Origin: Chytriomyces cf. hyalinus JEL632
Taxonomy: Eukaryota; Chytridiomycota; Chytridiomycetes; Chytridiales; Chytriomycetaceae
DNA length: 25,493 nucleotides
Direction of reading: 5' to 3'
Assembly (NCBI GenBank): GCA_025435555.1
Contig: JAIWWG010000179.1
Span: 1 to 25,493 of the forward strand
The notes beneath the pieces are model-generated. The model did no database searches and was not told the DNA's origin. It worked only from the letters and a program-made list of their open reading frames with translations. Made by a program: the position numbers and the translations under genes. Of this stretch, positions 3,167 to 25,493 are shown in pieces. Within the stretch, counting starts at the first letter, position 1, and each line of letters begins with the position of its first letter.

Positions 3167-4760
3167 TCAGATGATCAGACTGTCAAGAGTGAGGAAGACA
3201 ACAAACATTTGCACAACTGACGGACAACGTGCGCACACCAAAGCCACTCGGTTTGAATAGGTATCTTCTTGTGTGATGGCAGGCGAGCCAAGTTTATTTT
3301 GCAGTTTTTGCATCATAAAAAAAAATGTGCGTTTCAGAAACACCTGAATTGCAAAGTTTCGAATTTCCACAAGCAGGAATGGCAGACGCGTTTAATTCAG
3401 CAGATTTTCAACACCCCGCACGAATACCTTGATTGTGGCATTATCATTTGCATCAGTGTCCCTGTCTTCTGCTTTTCTTTCTTTCTTTCGTATTTTCGAT
3501 CCATTTAAGGAGCCACCCCCAATCAACTCATGCAAATTGTCGAGACATGCTCGAATAGGCACAAATGCGATATGAGATGAATGCAACAGTTCTGTAGCTC
3601 TTGTTTCCATCCCTTTCATGAGCGACTGCAGCCGCTTCAACTCTTTCAATGTTGCCGCATTTATAACGCCTTTCTTTCATGGTCGATGTTGTCGCAAACA
3701 ATTTCGCGCTTTCCATTGTACTTTGCCGACTTTGTGCATTGCTTGGGGTATTCGAAGCAGTAGAGTCCAACCCGCTTGAACAGATTCCAAGAACGCATTC
3801 ATTTCCACGAGCATTCGGCGTAGACTTAAAATCAACCGGTCAAATTGTCGGCAGACGTTGTCCAGTTGCTTCTGAGTGGCTGTTTTCCCACATGTTGCGC
3901 AACAACCCGTGAATTTTCCAACATTTCCAGTTATGCAAATCATTTCTGCAGATGATTCATTTTCGGAGGTCCATTGAAATGCTGCGCATTCGTAATCTTC
4001 GTGGAGGGGTCCATGGACGATAGTATTCGAGCCTGCCAAAAATCCCGTCGTTGGTTGAGCATGACACCACTCGCATTGGCAGTAAAATAGAAAATGCTCT
4101 TCAAGATAGCGCTGCCGATCCTAAGAACATTGCTGAAAATCAGTTGGATAACCCGGGACAGCACAAGAAAGAACGTCACCTCAGCCAGTTCCACATTCGC
4201 CACCAAGTCAATGTAAGAAATGGTTACTTCCTCGCCGCATTGGATATCTCGTTTCACAGTCAATTGATACACTGGAGACGGGAAGCCTTCAACTTCGTCA
4301 CATGCGTTTGGATTGCAAGAATGATTTGCGTTGGACATTGTGACGAGGAGCGCAGTTGGGAACGAGTTGCACTGGAGCACAAAGTAAAAGCGCAGGATAA
4401 AGTCTCGAGATGGTGGTTGCAGCTGTTTGTTTGGCCGCACGTTATGTCGGCTGCTTTTTCGGCGATTTCGTCAATCTCAGACTGAGGAACCTGCTCCCGT
4501 CGCGCCGTTGGAATCATTGAGATTTGAATCGGAAACAAGTACTGAAGCACGCTGGATGCATTGATGCTGTTTCTCGCACGAAAGACGAGCGCGGCAGAAG
4601 CATTGGTCTGAGAGAACTGTCCGTGTGGCCAGGCCTCGAATGCGCTCTCCTCCAAGAGAAGCAGTCCTCTCTCGATGTGTTGAGTCGCTACGAACGCACG
4701 GCCTTTGTCGGGAAGCTCTTTGATCTGGAGAGCATCCTTGTTGACATTTTTTGGACCCAT
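3167..4760 (-). CDS. SMYD-like SET-domain protein lysine methyltransferase, five exons
   Basis: Proposed to transfer methyl groups from S-adenosylmethionine to protein lysines. The model in minus-strand order is 4760-4491, 4422-4180, 4120-3722, 3673-3428 and 3343-3167, about 444 residues, with every intron phase 0. Introns are 68, 59, 48 and 84 nt; the third removes an in-frame TGA at 3679-3677. Residues 1-45 resemble the SET N terminus (DKGRAFVATQHIERG). The core signature is NANHSCNPNA (121-130) followed by GEEVTISYIDL (153-163), the cofactor and active-site region of SET domains. A CxCxxC post-SET zinc motif follows at C185, C187 and C190. Family proteins usually carry a MYND zinc finger inserted early in SET; none is visible here, as EESAFEAW passes straight to the helical part. 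The C-terminal helical region (LLHSSHIAFVPIRACLDNL) resembles the SMYD tail. Exons 1-3 are well supported; introns 3 and 4 and the exact C terminus are less sure. Confidence 0.75.
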
Positions 4761-11999: not shown

Positions 12000-12006
12000 A
12001 GAAATG

Positions 12007-12480
12007 TGTAACAAAGCTCTGCGGTGTTTAGATTATATGTGGCCTGGACCAATCCAAGTTACATATAGCACAGAGGGCAGTACAGGTGCTCAGACTTGAA
12101 TGCATGCATTAGGACCATCCATAAGAGTGCCTGTGAGAAGTTTGGTGCATGTTGGAAAAGCCTATCTCTGCAGAAAGGGAGTTGGTGGGAGGAATCAAAC
12201 CACTCAGAGTGCCAACAAAAGACCCAGTGGCAAAGTGCTGCAAATGAGCAAAGGACAGCACCTCCACAGATGTCATCTCAGGATTGTGTAAAAAAGCTCT
12301 GGGGTTTTGCAAAGATGCAGGTTGCATCTGCAGGTTATATGTAGCCTGGACCAATCTATGTAACATACAGCACAGAAAGCTTTACAAGTGCTCGAACTTG
12401 ATCACATGTATTAGAACCGTCTGTAAAAGTGCCTTTGAGAAGTTTGGTACATTTTAATAAAGGCAATGTCAGCAGACAGG
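12007..12480. repeat. Diverged tandem duplication, about 280-300 bp period
   Basis: The block starting gtgtaacaaagctctg (12007) recurs as gtgtaaaaaagctctg (12287). The block starting atatgtggcctggaccaat (12035) recurs as atatgtagcctggaccaat (12337). Homology continues through gagaagtttggtgcat and gagaagtttggtacat. A 22-nt length difference between the blocks explains the two offsets (280 and 302). Confidence 0.65.
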
Positions 12481-13190
12481 GACTTGGTGGGAACTGATAA
12501 TGTCTCTACCAGCAACCCAGTCCTACTCAACAGGTTTTGGCAATCCAGGCATTGATCCAAACTGCCCATGCAAAGTACCCTAGGCATTAAAACATTTTAT
12601 TACATTTTCTGCAGCTAGGATTTGTCTCTATGCTGGAAAGTGCAATTTAACTTAAACCCACTTAAAAGCTTCTCAGGAATGTGCCACATACCAAAACTGC
12701 TGGCAATTGTTCTCCAAAATATTGAAACACACGTTTACACCTTGTTCTTGAAGCATTTGTCTCTGGGCTGGAAACTGATGATGTCTCCCACAACAAACCA
12801 GTCCCACTCAACAGCTTTTTGCAACTTTCAAAGAGCATGGAAACATGTTGTTATACTTTTCACCAGAAGGATTTGTCTTTGTGTAGAAAATTGATGATGT
12901 CTCCAGCAAGAACCCAGTCCCACTCAATAACTTTTGCAACCCAGATATCCATCCAAACTGCTACTTCTCACTTCAGAGAGCATGGAAACATGTTATTACA
13001 TGTTCTTGCTGAAAGATTTGTCTATGTGATGAAACCTGGAGATGTCTCCCCCAACAACTTAGTTGCACTCTGCAGCTAGTTGCATCCTAAACATCCATGT
13101 AACCTACTACTTTTTACTTCAAAGAGCATTGAAACATATCAATCCACCTTCTTGCAGAAGGTTTCGTCTGCAGAATTTAAACTGATAATA
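12480..13190. repeat. Degenerate tandem repeat, about 116-145 bp period
   Basis: Units begin near 12621, 12756, 12872, 13017 and 13162 with tttgtct-like starts. Most continue with gatgatgtctccc, cccagtcccactcaa and agagcatggaaacatgtt. An earlier unit near 12480 shares the middle part. Identity between units is modest, so this is an old array. It differs in sequence from the 140-bp satellite further right. Confidence 0.6.
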
Positions 13191-13782
13191 TATTTATATC
13201 ATAAATTTTTGGTAAAACCTTTTAAAAAATATACAATTGCAAACAACAATATCTTTCAGTTCACTTTATGTGACGACTGATGCAAACACTGAATCCATTG
13301 GTGCATCTTTTCAATGCACCAATCTGTATCTTTCCGCTTCAAAGTAATTGTCAAGTGCATTGTCATACTGCATTGACAGCAACAAACTTGCTTTTTCACT
13401 CACTCGCACTTGCCTCTCAACAGCTACTTTCATTTGGTTCATCTGTTTCTTCACTTGACCTTCACACGTGTTCTGACTTTAATCTTAGTGTGGCATATAT
13501 ATTTTTGTATTTTAGTCATTTGAGTTAATTTGATTGATTCGCATGCTCAGTCAATCCTACAGGTTCAGCACAAACCATTCAGAGGTATGAGAGCATAACA
13601 AAACAAGGCAACTCACTGTCACAGCAATCACACAATCTCAAGAAAAGTACTTTTATTTAAGGAGTTCTTGAAATTGATCATAAAATTGATGGGCGCAAAC
13701 TTTTCAGAGGCATGGACCATAATAAAAAAAGTTGCTATCAAGGCAATCTTGACGCATGATAACATAACAAATAACAATTTAG
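13191..13782. other. Spacer between repeat arrays
   Basis: This is AT-rich noncoding sequence. Near 13567 and 13693 a segment beginning gcacaaaccattcagaggtatg is repeated as gcgcaaacttttcagaggcatg (offset about 126), probably a very decayed repeat pair. No gene was seen. Confidence 0.35.
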
Positions 13783-15201
13783 GGGGGTGTGAGTTAAGAT
13801 GTGCAATAATTGATGTGGAAATGTAAGAATAAATGTGACACAGAATGAGAGAAATGACTTACCAAATCTCACAATGAGAGTAACAATTGTCATTTTTTCA
13901 AATCTATCTTACCTTATGCACATGAAGAGGGAGTTGAGGTAAGCATTTATTGATGGAAATGCATAAATAAAAGTAATACAGCATGAGAGAAATGACTTAA
14001 CAAATGTCACAAAGAGAGCAACAATCGACATTTTTTCAAGTTTATCTTATCTTACACACATGTGAAGGGAATTGAGCTGAGCATTTCATGATATGGACGT
14101 GTATGAAAAAAAGAGACACAGCATGAGAGAAATGACTCAACAAATCTTACAAAGAAAGTAACAGTCGTCAGTTTTTCAAGTTTATCATATCTGATGCACA
14201 TGTAGAGGGAATTGAGCTGAGCATTTATTGATATGGACGTGTATGAAAAAAAGTGATACAGCATGAGAGAAATGACTTAACAAATGTCGCAACGAGAGTA
14301 ACCGTTGTCATTTTTTTGAGTCTATGTCATCAGATGCGCATGTAGAGGGAATTGAGCTGAGCATTTATTGATATGGACGTGTATGAAAAAAAGTGATACA
14401 GCATGAGAGAAATGACTTAACAAATGTCGCAACGAGAGTAACCGTTGTCATTTTTTTGAGTCTATGTCATCAGATGCGCATGTAGAGGGAATTGAGCTGA
14501 GCATTTATTGATATGGACGTGTATGAAAAAAAGTGACTCGACATGAGAGAAATGACTTAACAAATGTCGCAACGAGAGTAACAGTTGTCATTTTTTCGAG
14601 TCTATGTCATCAGATGCGCATGTAGAGGGAATTGAGCTGAGCATTTATTGATATGTGCATGTATGAAAAAAAGTGATACAGCATGAGAGAAATGACTTAA
14701 CAAATGTCGCAACGAGAGTAACGGTTGTCATGTTTTCAAGTTTATCTTATCTGATGCACATGTAGAGGGAATTGAGCTGAGCATTTATTGATATGGACGT
14801 GTATGAAAAAAAGTGACTCGACATGAGAGAAATGACTTAACAAATGTCGCAACGAGAGTAACAGTTGTCATTTTTTCGAGTCTATGTCATCAGATGCGCA
14901 TGTAGAGGGAATTGAGCTGAGCATTTATTGATATGGACGTGTATGAAAAAAAGTGACTCGACATGAGAGAAATGACTTAACAAATGTCGCAACGAGAGTA
15001 ACAGTCGTCATTTTTTCGAGTCTATGTCATCTGATGCACATGTAGAGGGAATTGAGCTGAGCATTTATTGATATGGACGTGTATGAAAAAAAGTGACTCG
15101 ACATGAGAGAAATGACTTAACAAATGTCGCAACGAGAGTAACGGTCGTCATTTTTTCGAGTCTATGTCATCTGATGCACATGTAGAGGGAATTGAGCTGA
15201 G
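13783..15201. repeat. 140-bp subtelomeric satellite array
   Basis: The anchor tgtagagggaattgagctga recurs at exactly 140-bp steps at 14201, 14341, 14481, 14621, 14761, 14901, 15041 and 15181. Diverged units lie at 14061 and 13923, and a poorer one near 13783. Units from 14201 rightward are nearly identical; for example 14221-14340 equals 14361-14480. Two subtypes alternate (gtgatacagcatgag versus gtgactcgacatgag). The last unit is cut after attgagctgag at 15201, where telomere repeat begins. No unit encodes a conserved protein. The position between genes and telomere repeat marks it as subtelomeric. Confidence 0.93.
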
Positions 15202-15213
15202 AGTTAGGGTTAG
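15202..15213 (+). repeat. Telomere repeat remnant between satellite and LINE copy 1
   Basis: The sequence agttagggttag, about 1.7 units of TTAGGG, lies exactly between the truncated satellite unit and the 5' end of the truncated LINE. With one extra base on each side it equals the gttagggttaga found at the second junction (20154). G-strand orientation implies that the chromosome end lies to the right. Confidence 0.85.
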
Positions 15214-15214
15214 A

Positions 15215-16152
15215 CCCATGTGCGTACCTCTCGAAAAAGCGGTCGTGGAGGTCGCACTGGACCTGGAGGGCGTATTGTCCCAGGTGCTGCCCCTGCCTCA
15301 ACAACAACTGTTTCTGTACCCGTTGCTGTTGAAAACACTTCCACACAGGTTGTTGAAGCCGCCTGGTCCACTGTTGCACGTAATGGAACGCGTCGTGCCC
15401 CTCCACCATCTTGCGAATCTCGTCAACGCGCGCCGCAAACTCAGCAGCAGTATGATGAAAAAACACACCGCATGCGTCAAAAGAAGGCATTACAGATGGC
15501 GAAAGCTGTCCCTGAACCGAAAAAGTTTGCAGTGATCCGTGTTGAACTCCACAGCAGTCGTCAGTTGCGCGGATGTTCCTTCCGGGACCGGAAACATTTG
15601 ATCGATGCGTTTGTGGGACAGATGGGGGTTCGCCACAATGTGGCTCTTACCTCATCTATTGGTAACTCCATCATTGAGCTGTATTGTCCGACTGATGTTG
15701 TTCTGGAAGTGGTGCGAGTTCTTAGGGAGCGTGGCCAACAAGTCCTCCTTGCAGCCTTCAACCCACTCATATCCGACATTGACGGAAATCGCCTTGACTC
15801 CACCCAGACAGAAAAAGCTGCCAAGCGCCTCGCGTTTTTGTGCAAAGCCGCACGTACTGTCAATCTCCGTGCTGCCATCCTTGCCGGTGCCTCTCAGCAA
15901 CTCAAGGAAGCCACGCAGAAAGTGTTTGAAACCATCCGAGGCTCCCCATCCGACTCCCTTCTTGCACCCCCACGCCCCCACCGTAGCGCGTTTGCGAAAT
16001 TTGCTGCCCCAGACACACTGTCGCTAACTGATTTTGTGACTCTCGACCCAGTTCCGGAATCTACTGAGTTTGTCGATAGTCAAGACGATGTTGCCATGTC
16101 TGTGTCCAATCTGGATCTTGGTCCCGCGGCTGACGCCGCCGACCAAGAATGA
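15215..16152 (+). pseudogene. LINE ORF1, 5'-truncated (copy 1)
   Basis: About 312 codons corresponding to residues 316-627 of the full ORF1 at 20182. The zinc-ribbon-like region, Ser/Thr/Ala-rich region and coiled coil are missing. The Arg/Gly-rich segment (RTSRKSGRGGRTGPGGR) and the C-terminal domain (RVELHSSRQLRG, SSIGNSIIELYCP) remain. There is no in-frame ATG near the break; the first ATG, at 15218, is out of frame. The sequence ends GAATGA, overlapping ORF2 by ATGA. The remaining part appears identical in protein to copy 2. Confidence 0.85.
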
Positions 16153-19100
16153 TCAAAATCGCATTTTCGAATCTCAACGGGCTGTCTGGCAAAGCCGAAG
16201 AAGTCCTGAGATTCAAGTCTGCGCAATCTGTTGACCTTTCTTTAATGGTGGAAACGTGGCTCTCCCCAACATCCTCCATTCCTTTTCGACCACACCTATT
16301 TAATATCACAAGTACAAACACGGAGGCAATTGCGGGAGGTCGGCGCAATTTTGGCGGCATTTTGGCGTTCTCAACTGCAACTCTCTCCCCCCAATTCCGA
16401 GTTATCTATGAAGATCCCTTGGGGTTCTATTGCGCAATGCGCATCTCTGATCTTATCCTCATCACTGCCTACATCCCCCCCTCTGCTGACAATCGGGTAA
16501 TCGGGGACATGCTTCAAAAAGCGGAAACGTTATCTGAAGGCTTTACGTTGCGTTGTCTTTTGGTTGGCGATCTGAACGCACGGATGACGGATGCTGGTGA
16601 TTCACTCACAAACACACGTGGAACGTATATGCAGCAGGAACTGTTCAACTCTGGACTTGCGCTTCAAATCCCGGAGTCTGGGAAATGGACGTCGTGGGCT
16701 GGTGGTGGTCGAGGGATTCCGGATGTTGTACTCTCGAGCTTCCCAGTCTCTAACCTCACAGTTCATGAAGGCGAGTCACTTGGAGGTTCGGACCATCGGC
16801 CGCTGACATTTTCTGTGCCACTGGATGTCGAAACCAAGCCCAAGTCTTTTGCGCGCTGGAATGTTCGTCGCCTCACAACTGCCAAATACCATCAGCGTTT
16901 TGCTGAGGAGCTGGAGTCCACGCAGCAGGAGATCATGGATCAACTGGAATTGCTGCGAACACGCTTGGAAAGCCCTGCTGTGGGATACGTTGCGGGTGTA
17001 TCACAGTGCGATGCACACACCGTGGCACCTGCAGTAGGCGCCAACCCTCCGGGAAGTACTTCCCATGCTTCTCTTGATCCTGTTACCCACACTGCAGATT
17101 GCCCCAGAGCCACCACTCACATGTCTGACAGTCCTTCTCAGTCCGCTGGTCCATCCCACTCCCATCCACGTTCTGTCGATGCTCCCAACCCATCTACGCA
17201 GCAGGACATGTGCTTATGCCTGGAATTGCTGCGAACGAGCTTTGAAAGCCCTGCTGTGGGGTACATCGCGGGTGCATCACAGTGCGATGCACACACCGCG
17301 GTACCTGCAGTAGGCGCTCCCCTCCCGGGAAGTACTTCTCGCTCCTCGCTCTTGAACAATACTCACACACCAAACCGTGCTAGAACTCAAGAGTTGATCA
17401 ACGAGGCCTGGGAACACTTCCTGTCATGGGTCCGAAATGCTGCGTCAAAGTCAATTGGTGTCCTCCAAGTCTCTGACCATCTGCCATCGGAGTTTTGGAC
17501 TGATGAGCTTGAACAAAGTCGGGACAACGTGCAGCAAGAACTTGCGAACGTGCAACAGGAAATCGAGCGTGGCCAGTTGTCTCGTCTCGAAATCAAACGC
17601 CTTGCTTCCGAACTGACCAACACTCAGCGTGCTTACCGGGCGGATCTGACCACACGCAAGCGCGTGCTCTTCGAAGATGCTGTCGATAAGCTCACAGTCC
17701 CACAAAACATGTCCTCGTTCATGCGCATGGTAAAAGGAGCCAAGTCGCGAAAAGACCGCACTGTCTGCAAACTGGACCCGGCGAAAATCAATGAACACGC
17801 TGCCCATTTTCGAACTACCTTTGGAGCACCTCCGACTGGACATCCCCAACCTGGACCCCCTGCGCTTGAGGAAATCCAGTCGCGTCCAACTCAGGAAGTC
17901 TTCAACCCGGATGCGATCATGTCTGCGATTGCTGGACTCCCACTCGGAAAGGCTACTGGATCCGATGGAATTCCTGCTGAACTCATCAAAGCCGGTGGCG
18001 ATCTCATGGCTGACGTTCTCAGTGTTTTCCTGCCCATGGTCCATGCTGCTGCAACTATTCCATCTGACTGGAGGAAGGCGCTCATTGTGCCAGTCTTCAA
18101 GAAGAAGGGATCTGATCAGGACATTGCAAACTACCGACCTATTGCACTGACAAGTACGATACGACGACTCTACGAGCGGCTGCTTGTTCCTGAACTTGGA
18201 CCCGTAATGCAACAACTCGATGACTTTCAAGGTGGCTTCAGACCCGGTCGGTCCTCGCTCGATCAAGCCATGGTTCTCCACGAAACCCTGAACACCAATG
18301 AACATGCTTCGACTATCCTGCTGGACATCAAAGCGGCATATGACGAAGTCGATCGAAGGGTTCTTTGGCAAATGCTCACACAAGTCTTCGGCCTGGACGA
18401 ATTCATGCTTGCACGGCTCCAGGATCTTTTCGATCACAACTCGTGCTGTCTGGTGGTGGCTGGCGTGATTAGTGATCCGATTGACAACGAACGAGGTCTT
18501 TTGCAGGGTGCTACTCTGTCCCCGATTTTGTTCAACTGTCACATCCATGGTCTCTCAATTCGGCTACGTGCTCCTGGAATCCCGCGAATTCGAATCAACG
18601 GTATCCATCTCAATAACCTCCTGTTTGCAGACGATACGTCCTTGGTAGCTGCAAATCAACATGATCTCGCAGTCCTGCTCCGAACGTGTGAGGAATGGTC
18701 CAACACTGTCGGCATCCGGTTCTCGCCATCCAAGTGCATCTATCTCGGTCCTGTTCCAGCACTACGTGATGTACCTCTCAAGCTCTACAACGTGGACCTT
18801 CCATCCCAGCAATGTGCCCCGTATCTCGGCATCCCTTTTGGCCAACACGGAATCAACTGGGCTCTGCTGGCAAAGGAACGAACTTCAAAAGCGCGTGGTG
18901 TCATTGTGGCGCTGGCATCGGTAGGTATGAATGCAATGGGCTGGGCTCCTGCAGCTTCTGTTACTATCTACAGGAGTTTCATTCGGCCGGTCCTTGAATA
19001 TGGCATTGCTCTCAAGCTCCCATCCGCGTCCACGCTCAAGTTGTACGAGTCGGTCCAACGTCTTGCACTACGGACTCTCACATCAACACCCCGCAACACG

Positions 19101-19970
19101 TCCACTGCCGCTCTCCACAAGCTGCTGCAAGTCGAACCATTCAAACACCGTGCTACCGAGCTCAATCTCATGTGGTCCTCCCGATTGCATAACTCAACTG
19201 ATCGTTCTATCCCGGCTGTTCGTTTCTGGCGCGGCGCTCTGCTTGGTGCTGACAAACCATTTCAGGAATGTCTTCCCCGCCTTGCTCGCTCCAACCCACT
19301 TGTGACTCATGTGGATGCTAAATGGATTGATTTTCGACAGCAACCACTGGTTCCCCCACCTCCAGCTGAAGTTCCGTTCCGGTACCCTCCGAAGCCAAAA
19401 CAAGCGCTGTCTGACAATGCTCGCAAGAAGCTGCGCAAGGAATCCATCGTCAACCTGGACAACAACCTGGACACCATTGCTGGCGCAATCCAAGTCGAAA
19501 CCAAAGACCCAGTCCGGCCGTATCTGACTGCCTGCAAGGGAATTGACCGCAAGACACGCAACAACATCCTTCGCTGGACTCTTGGTGCCGTCACCCGACA
19601 CGAACCGTGCCTCAAGTGCAACGACGTACTGACCCGATCCCATGCTGCTGACTGTTCTGGTGCCACTGCTCTCCTGCGCATCAACTGGGACACGCTTGCA
19701 CCTCCTGCCGGCCGAATGACCTGGCTTGATACGATCCTGAATGAAGTCCGGAATACACCGCCCTCCGAAATCGACACGTACACCGAAGTCTCTTCTGCCG
19801 TAGCTCTCATCTACACCGAATGTCGCCACCTCCAACAGCAAGCCAATGGCTACTGGGCCGAGCCAGATGCACCCGCACGACCACTGCCGCCTCGAAGACC
19901 GCGAAATCGCATACCTCAACCCGGGGGAGCCCCGCTTGGGCGACCACGGCAAAACCCGGAGCCTGGATAA
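16149..19970 (+). CDS. LINE ORF2: APE endonuclease and reverse transcriptase (copy 1, intact)
   Basis: A 1273-residue polyprotein that would nick telomeric DNA and reverse-transcribe the element RNA. The APE-type endonuclease spans about residues 1-225, with N8, E35, Y108, GDLNAR (140-145) and SDH (214-216). A linker contains a duplicated segment starting at residues 266 and 358, then a Gln/Glu-rich helical region. Reverse transcriptase motifs follow in order: GSDGIPAELIK, NYRPIALTS, GGFRPGRSSLDQ, LLDIKAAYDEVD (catalytic D726), QGATLSPILFN and LLFADD (catalytic D828, D829). A C-terminal CLKC...H...C motif begins at C1154. No RNase H domain is seen. The start codon overlaps the ORF1 stop (ATGA), suggesting termination-reinitiation. 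The frame is uninterrupted. Confidence 0.95.
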   Translation: MIKIAFSNLNGLSGKAEEVLRFKSAQSVDLSLMVETWLSPTSSIPFRPHLFNITSTNTEAIAGGRRNFGGILAFSTATLSPQFRVIYEDPLGFYCAMRISDLILITAYIPPSADNRVIGDMLQKAETLSEGFTLRCLLVGDLNARMTDAGDSLTNTRGTYMQQELFNSGLALQIPESGKWTSWAGGGRGIPDVVLSSFPVSNLTVHEGESLGGSDHRPLTFSVPLDVETKPKSFARWNVRRLTTAKYHQRFAEELESTQQEIMDQLELLRTRLESPAVGYVAGVSQCDAHTVAPAVGANPPGSTSHASLDPVTHTADCPRATTHMSDSPSQSAGPSHSHPRSVDAPNPSTQQDMCLCLELLRTSFESPAVGYIAGASQCDAHTAVPAVGAPLPGSTSRSSLLNNTHTPNRARTQELINEAWEHFLSWVRNAASKSIGVLQVSDHLPSEFWTDELEQSRDNVQQELANVQQEIERGQLSRLEIKRLASELTNTQRAYRADLTTRKRVLFEDAVDKLTVPQNMSSFMRMVKGAKSRKDRTVCKLDPAKINEHAAHFRTTFGAPPTGHPQPGPPALEEIQSRPTQEVFNPDAIMSAIAGLPLGKATGSDGIPAELIKAGGDLMADVLSVFLPMVHAAATIPSDWRKALIVPVFKKKGSDQDIANYRPIALTSTIRRLYERLLVPELGPVMQQLDDFQGGFRPGRSSLDQAMVLHETLNTNEHASTILLDIKAAYDEVDRRVLWQMLTQVFGLDEFMLARLQDLFDHNSCCLVVAGVISDPIDNERGLLQGATLSPILFNCHIHGLSIRLRAPGIPRIRINGIHLNNLLFADDTSLVAANQHDLAVLLRTCEEWSNTVGIRFSPSKCIYLGPVPALRDVPLKLYNVDLPSQQCAPYLGIPFGQHGINWALLAKERTSKARGVIVALASVGMNAMGWAPAASVTIYRSFIRPVLEYGIALKLPSASTLKLYESVQRLALRTLTSTPRNTSTAALHKLLQVEPFKHRATELNLMWSSRLHNSTDRSIPAVRFWRGALLGADKPFQECLPRLARSNPLVTHVDAKWIDFRQQPLVPPPPAEVPFRYPPKPKQALSDNARKKLRKESIVNLDNNLDTIAGAIQVETKDPVRPYLTACKGIDRKTRNNILRWTLGAVTRHEPCLKCNDVLTRSHAADCSGATALLRINWDTLAPPAGRMTWLDTILNEVRNTPPSEIDTYTEVSSAVALIYTECRHLQQQANGYWAEPDAPARPLPPRRPRNRIPQPGGAPLGRPRQNPEPG
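16944..17346 (+). repeat. Internal duplication in the ORF2 linker (copy 1)
   Basis: Two segments of about 127 nt, at 16944-17070 and 17220-17346, share ctggaattgctgcgaac, ctgctgtggg, acagtgcgatgcacacacc and ggaagtactt. The 276-nt offset is exactly 92 codons, so frame is kept. Both encode LELLRT...ESPAVGY.AG.SQCDAHT. The same pair is present in copy 2 at 22857-22983 and 23133-23259. Confidence 0.9.
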
Positions 19971-20154
19971 TCAACCGTCAAGCCCGAACTGACCATACAT
20001 ATCTTATTACCTTTACCGATCATCTGTTTTCTTAACATTTCCGCACTTTACTTCTGATTCTTTGGAGTTCTTGAACTTTTTTTGAGTGATTTTTGCTATC
20101 TTTCAACCCCGCACTTGTGTTACTGTGTAACTTGATTAAAAGAAACTGAAAACG
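19971..20154 (+). other. LINE 3' UTR (copy 1)
   Basis: 184 nt from the ORF2 stop to the telomere repeat, T-rich in the middle. A small inverted repeat, gttac-tgt-gtaac, sits at 20119-20131, 23 nt before the 3' end. The end is gattaaaagaaactgaaaac, A-rich but without a homopolymer tail. In this family type the reverse transcriptase recognises the RNA 3' end, so the hairpin is a candidate recognition element. Confidence 0.6.
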
Positions 20155-20164
20155 TTAGGGTTAG
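20155..20164 (+). repeat. Telomere repeat spacer between LINE copies
   Basis: Exactly TTAGGGTTAG, between the end of copy 1 and the 5' end of copy 2. Together with the preceding G and following A it matches the junction at 15203-15214 over 12 nt. This short, same-register spacer is the strongest sign of site-specific insertion in telomere repeats. Confidence 0.92.
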
Positions 20165-20181
20165 AAAAAAGTCTGTTTGAA

Positions 20182-22065
20182 ATGTCCACGGTCATCAAAA
20201 GCAGCAGCACCAACACCAAGCACCCGTTCGTGATGCTGGAGCTCAACATCGCAAAGCGCCTCAAGGGGACGGCTCGCTGTCCCGTGGCGGGATGCGGGTC
20301 GGCCTCTCTGAAGAGCCTTGGGGTGGGAGGGAATCCGAACCAGTTTGGGTTCTCCACCATCCAAATGCAGTGCACCACGTGCACCAAACGTTGCAGACTC
20401 AACGCAGCGCTGAAGGCAGGAGGGTCGGCCTCTGCGGACCTGTACGCAGAGTGGGAGAAGGCTTTCGGTAAGCTGGTCCCAGTCACTTCCACCACAGGCA
20501 CAGCAGCAAAGCGCCGCCGCCAGAACTCCGAAGCAGACACTGCCACTGCAGTCTCTACTTCCACACCCAGTGCTTCCCAGAGTCGTCTGATCCAACAGAC
20601 CCTCTCATTTGCTGCAGCCACCGCTGGCCGCTCTGTGGATCAGCCACCAGCAGGCTCAGCAGGCTCAGCAAGCACAGCAACAACCTCAACAACCAATCTC
20701 ACCACCCCAGCTGGTTCCGCAGGCCTTCCACAGAGCGAATTCAGCTTCATGGCACCCGCGCCAGCCATGCAGACCACCGCTGCAGCCTCCGAAATGTCGC
20801 CATCAGTGATTTCGAATGCATTTCCACCCCCTGCTGTGCCTGCCACAGCTGTCAACTGGCAGCAGCGTGCAGAGGCAGCAGAGGCCGCTACAGCTTCCCT
20901 TCAGACGCAGCTGCAGTCCCTGATTGCGCTGCTGGCCCAGCTGGTCACCCAGATGCAGCAGGGCTCAGTTGGTGTGGGTAAGTCATCAGGCACAGCAAAT
21001 GAGTGTCAGCCAACTGTGGCGCAGCCATTGAGCACAGCAACAGCCCTCTTGGCTTCCATCAGTGCTTCAACTGCTCCCACGCTCGCAGCACCAACTCCCA
21101 ATGGAGCCCAGTCCACCCACGTGCAGCCCCATGTGCGTACCTCTCGAAAAAGCGGTCGTGGAGGTCGCACTGGACCTGGAGGGCGTATTGTCCCAGGTGC
21201 TGCCCCTGCCTCAACAACAACTGTTTCTGTACCCGTTGCTGTTGAAAACACTTCCACACAGGTTGTTGAAGCCGCCTGGTCCACTGTTGCACGTAATGGA
21301 ACGCGTCGTGCCCCTCCACCATCTTGCGAATCTCGTCAACGCGCGCCGCAAACTCAGCAGCAGTATGATGAAAAAACACACCGCATGCGTCAAAAGAAGG
21401 CATTACAGATGGCGAAAGCTGTCCCTGAACCGAAAAAGTTTGCAGTGATCCGTGTTGAACTCCACAGCAGTCGTCAGTTGCGCGGATGTTCCTTCCGGGA
21501 CCGGAAACATTTGATCGATGCGTTTGTGGGACAGATGGGGGTTCGCCACAATGTGGCTCTTACCTCATCTATTGGTAACTCCATCATTGAGCTGTATTGT
21601 CCGACTGATGTTGTTCTGGAAGTGGTGCGAGTTCTTAGGGAGCGTGGCCAACAAGTCCTCCTTGCAGCCTTCAACCCACTCATATCCGACATTGACGGAA
21701 ATCGCCTTGACTCCACCCAGACAGAAAAAGCTGCCAAGCGCCTCGCGTTTTTGTGCAAAGCCGCACGTACTGTCAATCTCCGTGCTGCCATCCTTGCCGG
21801 TGCCTCTCAGCAACTCAAGGAAGCCACGCAGAAAGTGTTTGAAACCATCCGAGGCTCCCCATCCGACTCCCTTCTTGCACCCCCACGCCCCCACCGTAGC
21901 GCGTTTGCGAAATTTGCTGCCCCAGACACACTGTCGCTAACTGATTTTGTGACTCTCGACCCAGTTCCGGAATCTACTGAGTTTGTCGATAGTCAAGACG
22001 ATGTTGCCATGTCTGTGTCCAATCTGGATCTTGGTCCCGCGGCTGACGCCGCCGACCAAGAATGA
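20182..22065 (+). CDS. LINE ORF1 nucleic-acid-binding protein (copy 2, full length)
   Basis: 627 residues, presumed to coat element RNA and help bring it to the telomere. The N terminus has a zinc-ribbon-like pattern C33, C38, C64, C67 (CPVAGC...QCTTC), resembling ribbons in transposases and transcription factors rather than the CCHC knuckles of many LINE ORF1 proteins. A Ser/Thr/Ala/Pro-rich, probably disordered region follows. Residues 225-260 form a likely coiled coil (AEAAEAATASLQTQLQSL), suited to self-association. A basic Arg/Gly segment lies at 319-335. The conserved C-terminal region (about 405-500; RVELHSSRQLRG, SSIGNSIIELYCP) probably folds as an RNA-binding domain, by position only. 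The ATG at 20182 is the first in frame and 17 nt from the element start. The stop overlaps the ORF2 start. Confidence 0.88.
   Translation: MSTVIKSSSTNTKHPFVMLELNIAKRLKGTARCPVAGCGSASLKSLGVGGNPNQFGFSTIQMQCTTCTKRCRLNAALKAGGSASADLYAEWEKAFGKLVPVTSTTGTAAKRRRQNSEADTATAVSTSTPSASQSRLIQQTLSFAAATAGRSVDQPPAGSAGSASTATTSTTNLTTPAGSAGLPQSEFSFMAPAPAMQTTAAASEMSPSVISNAFPPPAVPATAVNWQQRAEAAEAATASLQTQLQSLIALLAQLVTQMQQGSVGVGKSSGTANECQPTVAQPLSTATALLASISASTAPTLAAPTPNGAQSTHVQPHVRTSRKSGRGGRTGPGGRIVPGAAPASTTTVSVPVAVENTSTQVVEAAWSTVARNGTRRAPPPSCESRQRAPQTQQQYDEKTHRMRQKKALQMAKAVPEPKKFAVIRVELHSSRQLRGCSFRDRKHLIDAFVGQMGVRHNVALTSSIGNSIIELYCPTDVVLEVVRVLRERGQQVLLAAFNPLISDIDGNRLDSTQTEKAAKRLAFLCKAARTVNLRAAILAGASQQLKEATQKVFETIRGSPSDSLLAPPRPHRSAFAKFAAPDTLSLTDFVTLDPVPESTEFVDSQDDVAMSVSNLDLGPAADAADQE
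22062..22065 (+). promoter_or_regulatory. ATGA stop-start overlap of ORF1 and ORF2
   Basis: The ORF2 ATG shares its TG with the ORF1 TGA. The same arrangement is at 16149-16152 in copy 1. In SART1 of silkworm a similar overlap supports reinitiation of ORF2 translation; the role here is inferred by analogy. Confidence 0.7.
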
Positions 22066-24911
22066 TCAAAATCGCATTTTCGAATCTCAACGGGCTGTCT
22101 GGCAAAGCCGAAGAAGTCCTGAGATTCAAGTCTGCGCAATCTGTTGACCTTTCTTTAATGGTGGAAACGTGGCTCTCCCCAACATCCTCCATTCCTTTTC
22201 GACCACACCTATTTAATATCACAAGTACAAACACGGAGGCAATTGCGGGAGGTCGGCGCAATTTTGGCGGCATTTTGGCGTTCTCAACTGCAACTCTCTC
22301 CCCCCAATTCCGAGTTATCTATGAAGATCCCTTGGGGTTCTATTGCGCAATGCGCATCTCTGATCTTATCCTCATCACTGCCTACATCCCCCCCTCTGCT
22401 GACAATCGGGTAATCGGGGACATGCTTCAAAAAGCGGAAACGTTATCTGAAGGCTTTACGTTGCGTTGTCTTTTGGTTGGCGATCTGAACGCACGGATGA
22501 CGGATGCTGGTGATTCACTCACAAACACACGTGGAACGTATATGCAGCAGGAACTGTTCAACTCTGGACTTGCGCTTCAAATCCCGGAGTCTGGGAAATG
22601 GACGTCGTGGGCTGGTGGTGGTCGAGGGATTCCGGATGTTGTACTCTCGAGCTTCCCAGTCTCTAACCTCACAGTTCATGAAGGCGAGTCACTTGGAGGT
22701 TCGGACCATCGGCCGCTGACATTTTCTGTGCCACTGGATGTCGAAACCAAGCCCAAGTCTTTTGCGCGCTGGAATGTTCGTCGCCTCACAACTGCCAAAT
22801 ACCATCAGCGTTTTGCTGAGGAGCTGGAGTCCACGCAGCAGGAGATCATGGATCAACTGGAATTGCTGCGAACACGCTTGGAAAGCCCTGCTGTGGGATA
22901 CGTTGCGGGTGTATCACAGTGCGATGCACACACCGTGGCACCTGCAGTAGGCGCCAACCCTCCGGGAAGTACTTCCCATGCTTCTCTTGATCCTGTTACC
23001 CACACTGCAGATTGCCCCAGAGCCACCACTCACATGTCTGACAGTCCTTCTCAGTCCGCTGGTCCATCCCACTCCCATCCACGTTCTGTCGATGCTCCCA
23101 ACCCATCTACGCAGCAGGACATGTGCTTATGCCTGGAATTGCTGCGAACGAGCTTTGAAAGCCCTGCTGTGGGGTACATCGCGGGTGCATCACAGTGCGA
23201 TGCACACACCGCGGTACCTGCAGTAGGCGCTCCCCTCCCGGGAAGTACTTCTCGCTCCTCGCTCTTGAACAATACTCACACACCAAACCGTGCTAGAACT
23301 CAAGAGTTGATCAACGAGGCCTGGGAACACTTCCTGTCATGGGTCCGAAATGCTGCGTCAAAGTCAATTGGTGTCCTCCAAGTCTCTGACCATCTGCCAT
23401 CGGAGTTTTGGACTGATGAGCTTGAACAAAGTCGGGACAACGTGCAGCAAGAACTTGCGAACGTGCAACAGGAAATCGAGCGTGGCCAGTTGTCTCGTCT
23501 CGAAATCAAACGCCTTGCTTCCGAACTGACCAACACTCAGCGTGCTTACCGGGCGGATCTGACCACACGCAAGCGCGTGCTCTTCGAAGATGCTGTCGAT
23601 AAGCTCACAGTCCCACAAAACATGTCCTCGTTCATGCGCATGGTAAAAGGAGCCAAGTCGCGAAAAGACCGCACTGTCTGCAAACTGGACCCGGCGAAAA
23701 TCAATGAACACGCTGCCCATTTTCGAACTACCTTTGGAGCACCTCCGACTGGACATCCCCAACCTGGACCCCCTGCGCTTGAGGAAATCCAGTCGCGTCC
23801 AACTCAGGAAGTCTTCAACCCGGATGCGATCATGTCTGCGATTGCTGGACTCCCACTCGGAAAGGCTACTGGATCCGATGGAATTCCTGCTGAACTCATC
23901 AAAGCCGGTGGCGATCTCATGGCTGACGTTCTCAGTGTTTTCCTGCCCATGGTCCATGCTGCTGCAACTATTCCATCTGACTGGAGGAAGGCGCTCATTG
24001 TGCCAGTCTTCAAGAAGAAGGGATCTGATCAGGACATTGCAAACTACCGACCTATTGCACTGACAAGTACGATACGACGACTCTACGAGCGGCTGCTTGT
24101 TCCTGAACTTGGACCCGTAATGCAACAACTCGATGACTTTCAAGGTGGCTTCAGACCCGGTCGGTCCTCGCTCGATCAAGCCATGGTTCTCCACGAAACC
24201 CTGAACACCAATGAACATGCTTCGACTATCCTGCTGGACATCAAAGCGGCATATGACGAAGTCGATCGAAGGGTTCTTTGGCAAATGCTCACACAAGTCT
24301 TCGGCCTGGACGAATTCATGCTTGCACGGCTCCAGGATCTTTTCGATCACAACTCGTGCTGTCTGGTGGTGGCTGGCGTGATTAGTGATCCGATTGACAA
24401 CGAACGAGGTCTTTTGCAGGGTGCTACTCTGTCCCCGATTTTGTTCAACTGTCACATCCATGGTCTCTCAATTCGGCTACGTGCTCCTGGAATCCCGCGA
24501 ATTCGAATCAACGGTATCCATCTCAATAACCTCCTGTTTGCAGACGATACGTCCTTGGTAGCTGCAAATCAACATGATCTCGCAGTCCTGCTCCGAACGT
24601 GTGAGGAATGGTCCAACACTGTCGGCATCCGGTTCTCGCCATCCAAGTGCATCTATCTCGGTCCTGTTCCAGCACTACGTGATGTACCTCTCAAGCTCTA
24701 CAACGTGGACCTTCCATCCCAGCAATGTGCCCCGTATCTCGGCATCCCTTTTGGCCAACACGGAATCAACTGGGCTCTGCTGGCAAAGGAACGAACTTCA
24801 AAAGCGCGTGGTGTCATTGTGGCGCTGGCATCGGTAGGTATGAATGCAATGGGCTGGGCTCCTGCAGCTTCTGTTACTATCTACAGGAGTTTCATTCGGC
24901 CGAGTCCTTGA
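22062..24911 (+). CDS. LINE ORF2 (copy 2), truncated by frameshift in the reverse transcriptase region
   Basis: Up to residue 947 it appears identical to ORF2 of copy 1, including all endonuclease motifs and the reverse transcriptase motifs through FADD (D828, D829). An extra A at 24903 (cggccgagtcc instead of cggccggtcc) shifts the frame and a TGA follows at 24909-24911. The product would lack the thumb-like region after the palm and the CCHC-like motif, so it is probably inactive for retrotransposition. A single-base sequencing or assembly error is a real alternative because the rest is so similar to copy 1. Confidence 0.9.
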   Translation: MIKIAFSNLNGLSGKAEEVLRFKSAQSVDLSLMVETWLSPTSSIPFRPHLFNITSTNTEAIAGGRRNFGGILAFSTATLSPQFRVIYEDPLGFYCAMRISDLILITAYIPPSADNRVIGDMLQKAETLSEGFTLRCLLVGDLNARMTDAGDSLTNTRGTYMQQELFNSGLALQIPESGKWTSWAGGGRGIPDVVLSSFPVSNLTVHEGESLGGSDHRPLTFSVPLDVETKPKSFARWNVRRLTTAKYHQRFAEELESTQQEIMDQLELLRTRLESPAVGYVAGVSQCDAHTVAPAVGANPPGSTSHASLDPVTHTADCPRATTHMSDSPSQSAGPSHSHPRSVDAPNPSTQQDMCLCLELLRTSFESPAVGYIAGASQCDAHTAVPAVGAPLPGSTSRSSLLNNTHTPNRARTQELINEAWEHFLSWVRNAASKSIGVLQVSDHLPSEFWTDELEQSRDNVQQELANVQQEIERGQLSRLEIKRLASELTNTQRAYRADLTTRKRVLFEDAVDKLTVPQNMSSFMRMVKGAKSRKDRTVCKLDPAKINEHAAHFRTTFGAPPTGHPQPGPPALEEIQSRPTQEVFNPDAIMSAIAGLPLGKATGSDGIPAELIKAGGDLMADVLSVFLPMVHAAATIPSDWRKALIVPVFKKKGSDQDIANYRPIALTSTIRRLYERLLVPELGPVMQQLDDFQGGFRPGRSSLDQAMVLHETLNTNEHASTILLDIKAAYDEVDRRVLWQMLTQVFGLDEFMLARLQDLFDHNSCCLVVAGVISDPIDNERGLLQGATLSPILFNCHIHGLSIRLRAPGIPRIRINGIHLNNLLFADDTSLVAANQHDLAVLLRTCEEWSNTVGIRFSPSKCIYLGPVPALRDVPLKLYNVDLPSQQCAPYLGIPFGQHGINWALLAKERTSKARGVIVALASVGMNAMGWAPAASVTIYRSFIRPSP

Positions 24912-25493
24912 ATATGGCATTGCTCTCAAGCTCCCATCCGCGTCCACGCTCAAGTTGTACGAGTCGGTCCAACGTCTTGCACTACGGACTCTCACATCAA
25001 CACCCCGCAACACGTCCACTGCCGCTCTCCACAAGCTGCTGCAAGTCGAACCATTCAAACACCGTGCTACCGAGCTCAATCTCATGTGGTCCTCCCGATT
25101 GCATAACTCAACTGATCGTTCTATCCCGGCTGTTCGTTTCTGGCGCGGCGCTCTGCTTGGTGCTGACAAACCATTTCAGGAATGTCTTCCCCGCCTTGCT
25201 CGCTCCAACCCACTTGTGACTCATGTGGATGCTAAATGGATTGATTTTCGACAGCAACCACTGGTTCCCCCACCTCCAGCTGAAGTTCCGTTCCGGTACC
25301 CTCCGAAGCCAAAACAAGCGCTGTCTGACAATGCTCGCAAGAAGCTGCGCAAGGAATCCATCGTCAACCTGGACAACAACCTGGACACCATTGCTGGCGC
25401 AATCCAAGTCGAAACCAAAGACCCAGTCCGGCCGTATCTGACTGCCTGCAAGGGAATTGACCGCAAGACACGCAACAACATCCTTCGCTGGAC
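24905..25493 (+). pseudogene. Out-of-frame remainder of ORF2 (copy 2), continues past the window
   Basis: Nucleotide sequence matches copy 1 from 18991 onward with the offset raised by one to 5914. It encodes the post-palm region (LEYGIALKLPSAS onward) in a frame no longer joined to the upstream part. The window ends about 95 nt before the CCHC-like motif. Confidence 0.85.

Follow-up and report, generated by a model that had tools for sequence, protein, structure and literature searches.

To our knowledge, long interspersed nuclear elements (LINEs) that target telomeres are known in few lineages. SART1 belongs to the R1 clade and is of the apurinic/apyrimidinic endonuclease (APE) type, Tx1-1_ACar and Zepp are L1-like elements of the APE type, HeT-A lacks a reverse transcriptase (RT), and TART has an endonuclease. 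According to the accessible part of one source, SART1 of Bombyx mori is a telomeric LINE on the TTAGG strand that inserts into the repeats and not at the terminus (PMC7265360); it is further described, in the portion available, as using its poly(A) tail and needing at least three TTAGG repeats. MoTeRs, as far as the available sections of their description go, form head-to-tail arrays with TTAGGG spacers of half a repeat to over 20 repeats, their 5' ends being nearest the chromosome end (PMC7367193). The sequence analysed in this study is the 25,493-nt contig JAIWWG010000179.1 (C89; "the window" denotes its full length) of the chytrid Chytriomyces cf. hyalinus JEL632, within a genome of 37.8 Mb and 242 contigs, and its right end holds two copies, in the same orientation, of one APE-type LINE with two open reading frames (ORFs), termed family A. 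With a probability of roughly 85%, this is a site-specific LINE whose insertion target is the duplex TTAGGG repeat at chytrid chromosome ends and which builds its arrays through target-primed reverse transcription (TPRT) and duplication.

Both copies lie on the forward strand. Copy 1 (15215–20153) is 5'-truncated inside ORF1, its match to copy 2 starting at 15215, equivalent to 21128, and it retains the 3' part of ORF1 (15220–16152) and an ORF2 of 1273 amino acids (16149–19970) whose start shares 4 nt with ORF1. Copy 2 (20165–25493) has a complete 5' end, with an A-run from 20165, a full ORF1 of 627 amino acids (20182–22065) and an ORF2 (22062–24911) whose frame is lost near 24903, before the contig end cuts the element. 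The copies are identical over 4,365 aligned bases save for a one-base length difference near 24903, which breaks ORF2 of copy 2. The telomeric spacer TTAGGGTTAG (15204–15213) stands at the border between a satellite array and copy 1, and GTTAGGGTTAG (20154–20164) between copy 1 and copy 2, both on the forward strand. An original prediction, made from the sequence alone, had proposed two same-orientation copies of a two-ORF APE LINE, with only a short sequence parting the copies from one another and the first from the satellite; the coordinates and domains agree with this, the intervening sequence being 10–11 nt of TTAGGG repeat, with the qualification that neither copy is of full length.

A chance match to TTAGGG at the copy borders can be rejected, as TTAGGGTTAG occurs exactly twice in the window (15204 and 20155), where shuffles give an expectation of 0.02. 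The ORF2 of copy 1 contains an APE endonuclease at amino acids 104–219 (PF14529) and a reverse transcriptase at 651–895 (RVT_1); both ORF2s match PF14529, PF03372 and RVT_1, PF03372 falling below its curated cut-off in each. With a LINE-type RT and an APE in one ORF, no long terminal repeats, and 5'-truncated copies, family A is a non-LTR element of the APE type. Copy 1 ends in the motif ACTGAAAAC (20145–20153, forward strand), with ATTAAA, a poly(A)-signal-like hexamer, 13 nt upstream of the 3' end (20135–20140, forward strand).

The genome was searched for further copies by scoring the best candidates only, with contig ends standing in for chromosome ends. For the 3' end of family A, this gave 42 places from 81 candidates, 40 scored, a number that is a lower bound. 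Thirty-eight run into GTTAGGGTTAG-type TTAGGG spacers (at L009 the terminus of the element is briefly repeated first), one on C111 lies at the contig end, and three are degenerate (C32, C231 and C202, the last two with an identical flank). ORF2 matches added three more 3' ends, one on C10 that is telomeric with a variant spacer and two that are degenerate (C21 and C228); the 3' end of a copy on C46 is outside the 45 ends read. In total, 39 of 45 are telomeric, one is cut by a contig end and five are degenerate. The claim that the LINE is telomere-targeted, which had been set against the case of most copies lying away from TTAGGG, is therefore upheld.

The position and orientation of these copies also point to chromosome ends. 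All 42 search places and the copies on C10 and C21, that is 44 of the 45 3' ends, are at most 31 kb from a contig end, and the copy on C228 is about 55 kb from the nearest one. On contigs of at least 100 kb, all 14 A 3' ends fall within 50 kb of an end, a zone that makes up 27% of the bases when the 21 tabulated large contigs are taken together. Thirteen of the 14 face outward. The copy on C21 points its 3' end inward with respect to the closer contig end. On C111, a stretch of DNA not resembling the elements precedes (TTAGGG)21, after which comes a truncated A copy; an A 3' end coincides with the contig end there. Family A thus combines 3' junctions fixed in telomeric repeats with near-end copies and uniform polarity, as a telomere-specific LINE does. 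Its ORF2 has 40 matches in the genome, 20 of them full-length without stops at 99–100% identity, suggesting that A was recently active or has been homogenised. At C209:193520–193648 (L061), an A copy stops abruptly inside ORF2 and gives way to imperfect TTAGGG repeats that continue to where the contig stops, which could reflect either the healing of a broken end or an assembly error.

The elements adjoining A belong to families B, C and D, which are mixed in the same arrays. Family B has an ORF2 of 1221 amino acids, with 13 full-length open frames at 100%, and D has four open ORF2 frames of 1230 amino acids. Family C is 2.34 kb long with ORF1 but no ORF2, and is probably a non-autonomous telomeric element; an example is C94:17541–19884 (L011, L066, L010), with a 3' end like that of D, and others are on C10, C95, C199, C203, C210 and elsewhere. 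The ORF2s are only 28% identical between A and B, 34% between A and D (RT half) and 45% between B and D (RT half). Despite this low identity, all four families end in ACTGAAAAC before GTTAG, with ATTAAA (A) or AATAAA (B, C, D) 13–14 bases upstream of the 3' end. There is no poly(A) tail, the usual 3' end ACTGAAAAC being joined directly to GTTAGGG, and intact 5' ends carry 5 to 10 A residues (A, B and C pooled). The 20-mer junction ACTGAAAACGTTAGGGTTAG occurs 54 times exactly in the genome; tolerating one mismatch raises the count to 78 and tolerating two raises it to 86, although some of the eight rows with two mismatches may not be element ends, and a reversed-pattern control gave none. The sense strand of A–D is the G-strand, and on large contigs the 3' end nearly always faces the terminus.

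Regular spacers at A 3' ends measure 10 to 14 nt. None shorter than 10 nt is present in the spacer tally, five irregular ones apart (one of these, L009, is regular behind the short 3'-end repeat); in this tally some loci overlap, with a few junctions counted twice, and a spacer of three repeats on C40 was read as two. Longer spacers are found at C94:22235 (five repeats) and at the satellite border on C113 (nearly three). Variant spacers cluster by array, with GTTAGGGTTAT seven times on C10 and twice on C198, GTTAGAGTTAG three times on C5, and GTTAAGGTTAG three times on C203 and twice on C137. Among adjacent junction pairs holding a variant, 12 of 18 are identical, whereas 20,000 shuffles averaged 1.17 and never exceeded 6; the pairs were drawn from the 78 junctions found when one mismatch is tolerated and are neighbours in that list, which passes over any junction that the pattern missed. 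Equal variants have different families between them on both C5 and C10. The simplest reading of these sequences would be insertion into an existing spacer with a target-site duplication of about 11 bp, which would leave a near-constant spacer.

Families A–D are read here as telomere-repeat-specific LINEs of SART polarity that would use TPRT from a nicked C-strand. As their sense strand is the G-strand, synthesis would be primed at a C-strand nick in duplex repeat and not from the G-overhang. The ORF2 endonuclease would nick near CCCTAAC^CC, a position that is uncertain by one base because the joint G can belong to either side. Once paired to a telomere-like 3' terminus of the RNA, the 3'-OH of the nicked C-strand would prime reverse transcription; a transcript that continued beyond the poly(A) signal into UUAGGG would make such annealing possible. 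A second cut about 11 bp away would then duplicate GTTAGGGTTAG(G), each insertion yielding two spacers for the next. The duplicated target being itself usable, head-to-tail arrays of A, B, C and D with near-constant spacers would follow.

Several observations weigh against this account. Five of the 45 A 3' ends are degenerate, and the single exception in polarity among the 14 on large contigs is on C231. Copies of D lie well inside C203, C198 and C221, as do copies of C in C203 and C210. Departure from the repeat comes early at one B copy, on C12 (GTTAGGACTC), and at the D copy on C221 (GTTAGGGAGT). Six of the 18 adjacent variant pairs differ, and recombination instead of target-site duplication could be the source of variant sharing. 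Contig ends are error-prone, making array sizes uncertain, and the retrotransposition of A is putative. The internal D and C copies may mark old ends, or else the target specificity may be for the TTAGGG repeat and not for the chromosome end.

The arrays might instead have spread mainly by recombination, through unequal exchange or break-induced copying between ends, with the spacer copied along or with long, fragile TTAGGG tracts purged. The near identity of the copies and the subtelomere shared by C89 and C113 agree with this, and in M. oryzae, according to the part of the source available, inter-MoTeR tracts of three or more repeats break while stable ones have at most two (PMC7367193). By analogy, such fragility may add to the constancy of the spacers. 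Copying between ends fits poorly, on the other hand, with the different families, different orders and various 5'-truncation points found between spacers, or with the border of C89 and C113, where the telomeric repeat is followed by a truncated A on C89 but by a B element with its 5' end on C113. Fragility alone would also permit spacers far below 10 nt, of which there are none among the regular A junctions. Spread mainly by recombination is therefore unlikely.

A further alternative is that the elements, like those of Drosophila, maintain chromosome ends in place of telomerase. Arrays at the ends of many contigs, and the finding of (TTAGGG)4 on four contigs only, would suit such a replacement. 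The genome nevertheless encodes a TERT-type RNA-binding domain, on C172, and has (TTAGGG)n tracts, one of 8 units on C94 and one of 21 on C111, and the polarity of A–D would need duplex telomeric repeats and could not extend a bare G-overhang. A replacement of telomerase is thus quite improbable, and with a TERT gene present the elements probably live in the telomere. PF14529 has 73 matches in the genome, 65 in A, B or D copies or arrays (assigned by position) and eight outside them (C178, C181 twice, C25, C120, C179, C84 and C46:499292), so that other APE LINEs may exist. These eight and the few degenerate A flanks would suit an ordinary interspersed LINE clustered because only heterochromatic ends tolerate it, but with TTAGGG-fixed junctions at 39 of 45 A ends and 54 exact junctions genome-wide against none in the control, this is very improbable indeed.

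Compared with described systems, A–D resemble SART1 in being specific for telomeric repeats and in having G-strand polarity. They differ from it in lacking the poly(A) tail, with a fixed ACTGAAAAC end and a different joint, and in that spacers of two repeats apparently suffice. The polarity of TRAS, which in the available portion of the source coexists in Bombyx mori with a family of opposite polarity (PMC7265360), is opposite to that of A–D. As stated in the accessible excerpts, MoTeR and FoTeR, from Magnaporthe and Fusarium, belong among the CRE-type elements, and their endonuclease is restriction-like; there, FoTeR 3' ends run into TAACCC, and its authors could not identify a target-site duplication. 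By our reading of these 3' flanks in the excerpts, FoTeR polarity is opposite to that of A–D. MoTeRs are similar to A–D in being fungal, telomeric and arranged in arrays, and MoTeR2, as described in the part available, is without the RT region just as C is without ORF2. Membership of A in the MoTeR/CRE group was rejected, since PF14529 exceeds its cut-off, indicating an APE and not a restriction-like endonuclease, and since the 5' end is not terminal; A–D also differ from MoTeR and FoTeR in their outward 3' ends and near-constant spacers. Tx1-1_ACar and Zepp, which the accessible text of a further paper names as telomeric LINEs (PMC10088271), share with A a telomeric setting but are from other hosts.

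Phylogenetic placement was based on an RT tree of 72 sequences, made up of A, B, D and E (described below) with 69 of 216 listed relatives, less P0170, which gave no match; the references are mostly unnamed metagenomic sequences and Mucor. Family A groups with the metagenomic P0001 and P0002, and B with D, while the Mucor LINEs are outside the group holding A, B and D. Among solved structures, the RT of A is best matched by L1 ORF2p (50 bits), with R2 near (46 bits), and no named R1 reference is among the RT matches obtained. A scan of IMG/VR for relatives of ORF2 gave six pattern matches, none of which was confirmed. ORF1 of A matches no Pfam family and has two homologues among 8000 candidates scored, both from Chytriomyces hyalinus (65% and 61%), making it plausible, as had been suggested, that this ORF1 represents an undescribed family.

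A further LINE, family E, has a poly(A) tail and lies on the strand opposite to A–D. Its 3'-end search gave 24 matches, 23 of which reach the 3' end, and all 23 flanks were read. On large contigs, the 5' end is outward in 13 of 15 places. Scored against (CCCTAA)n, 14 of 21 flanks exceed the 99th percentile of the background, and two unscored flanks (C76:35235 and C177:932991) are telomeric by eye; seven are below the threshold, two of them (both on C167) telomere-like by eye and five not (C177:932211, C193:243250, C76:27568, C204 and C210). The extreme ends of C232, C167 and C177 carry E copies arranged in tandem, each truncated or cut by the contig end. Representatives are L074/L073 (C111:10708–14402), L075 (C193) and L076 (C182), with an ORF1 of about 360 codons.

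Family E has no recognisable endonuclease. RVT_1 is the only match above cut-off in its RT part, with no APE family, and none of the PF14529 or PF03372 matches in the genome profile searches falls inside an E copy. Upstream of the RT, where three copies were read (C111, C193 and C182), no endonuclease was seen, a restriction-like endonuclease being excluded by eye only. Its closest relatives over most of the length, P0125 and P0127 (740 and 731 amino acids; 38% and 35% identical), start with Met and match RVT_1 only; additionally, the E ORF2 has an 89% match in Chytriomyces hyalinus over 26% of its length. Among solved structures, its RT matches L1 ORF2p and R2.

In polarity E is TRAS-like, though without a recognisable endonuclease. 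Endonuclease-lacking telomeric elements have been described from M. graminicola, where the available part of the source takes them as Penelope-like (PMC4522978). Family E is like these elements and HeT-A/TART in its inward 3' end, its tandem truncated copies at contig ends and its want of a recognisable endonuclease, but differs in its LINE-type RT and poly(A) tail; its 3' end is this tail, whereas Penelope-like elements have telomeric repeats in the template 3' end. By analogy, E resembles HeT-A-type end addition. A composite chytrid telomere is possible, if somewhat short of probable, in which telomerase would be accompanied by A, B and D, nicking the C-strand and perpetuating a two-repeat target by duplication, by C as an ORF1-only parasite, and by an endonuclease-free E priming on the G-strand 3' end in the manner of HeT-A, with endonuclease-free relatives elsewhere. 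If this holds, E would be an example from nature of reverse transcription primed at chromosome ends in a host that has retained TERT, and would bear on the origin of telomerase-like end addition from retroelements.

No telomeric LINE in a chytrid is named in the titles and abstract starts of the open-licence literature searched. A near telomere-to-telomere paper on B. dendrobatidis counts LINEs in its repeat table, and its accessible part mentions none at telomeres (PMC11797018). The kind of element is known. As far as the searched literature shows, novelty lies in the lineage of the host, in a polarity new for fungal elements, in a 3' junction that is fixed and has no poly(A), in duplicated spacers specific to each array, and in the presence alongside of a LINE lacking an endonuclease. 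These findings would add an early-diverging fungus to the hosts of telomeric LINEs, with APE elements of a polarity opposite to that of the fungal MoTeRs. The variant spacers would expose a target-site duplication that perfect telomeric repeats usually hide, which makes the insertion step testable.

The satellite bordering the telomeric repeat in the window (13809–15201, forward strand) has about ten copies of a 140-bp unit. The original prediction had treated it as a subtelomeric satellite, but as a general feature of subtelomeres it is rejected, as the genome search found it only in the window and on C113. The same subtelomere is present at C113:10700–11990 (L117, L118) and in the window at 13392–15215, and may represent alleles or duplicated ends; the two differ in the point at which the telomere joins, in the inserted element (B on C113, A in the window) and apparently in satellite copy number. 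No repeat of at least 200 bp besides the satellite and the two A copies is found in 12001–25493, and an Rfam scan of the window gave no matches.

Within family A, the C-terminal part of ORF2 has a CX2CX8HX4C motif, identified by eye (19608–19655, forward strand), which we take to be zinc knuckle-like, and ORF1 of copy 2 has an N-terminal Cys cluster, also identified by eye (20278–20394). Between the endonuclease and the RT, ORF2 has an imperfect internal duplication of about 120 bp (16944–17062 and 17220–17338, 89% identical). About 9 kb inward of the satellite, an open frame with a SET-domain match (PF00856) at 3940–4437 on the reverse strand is probably a host gene.

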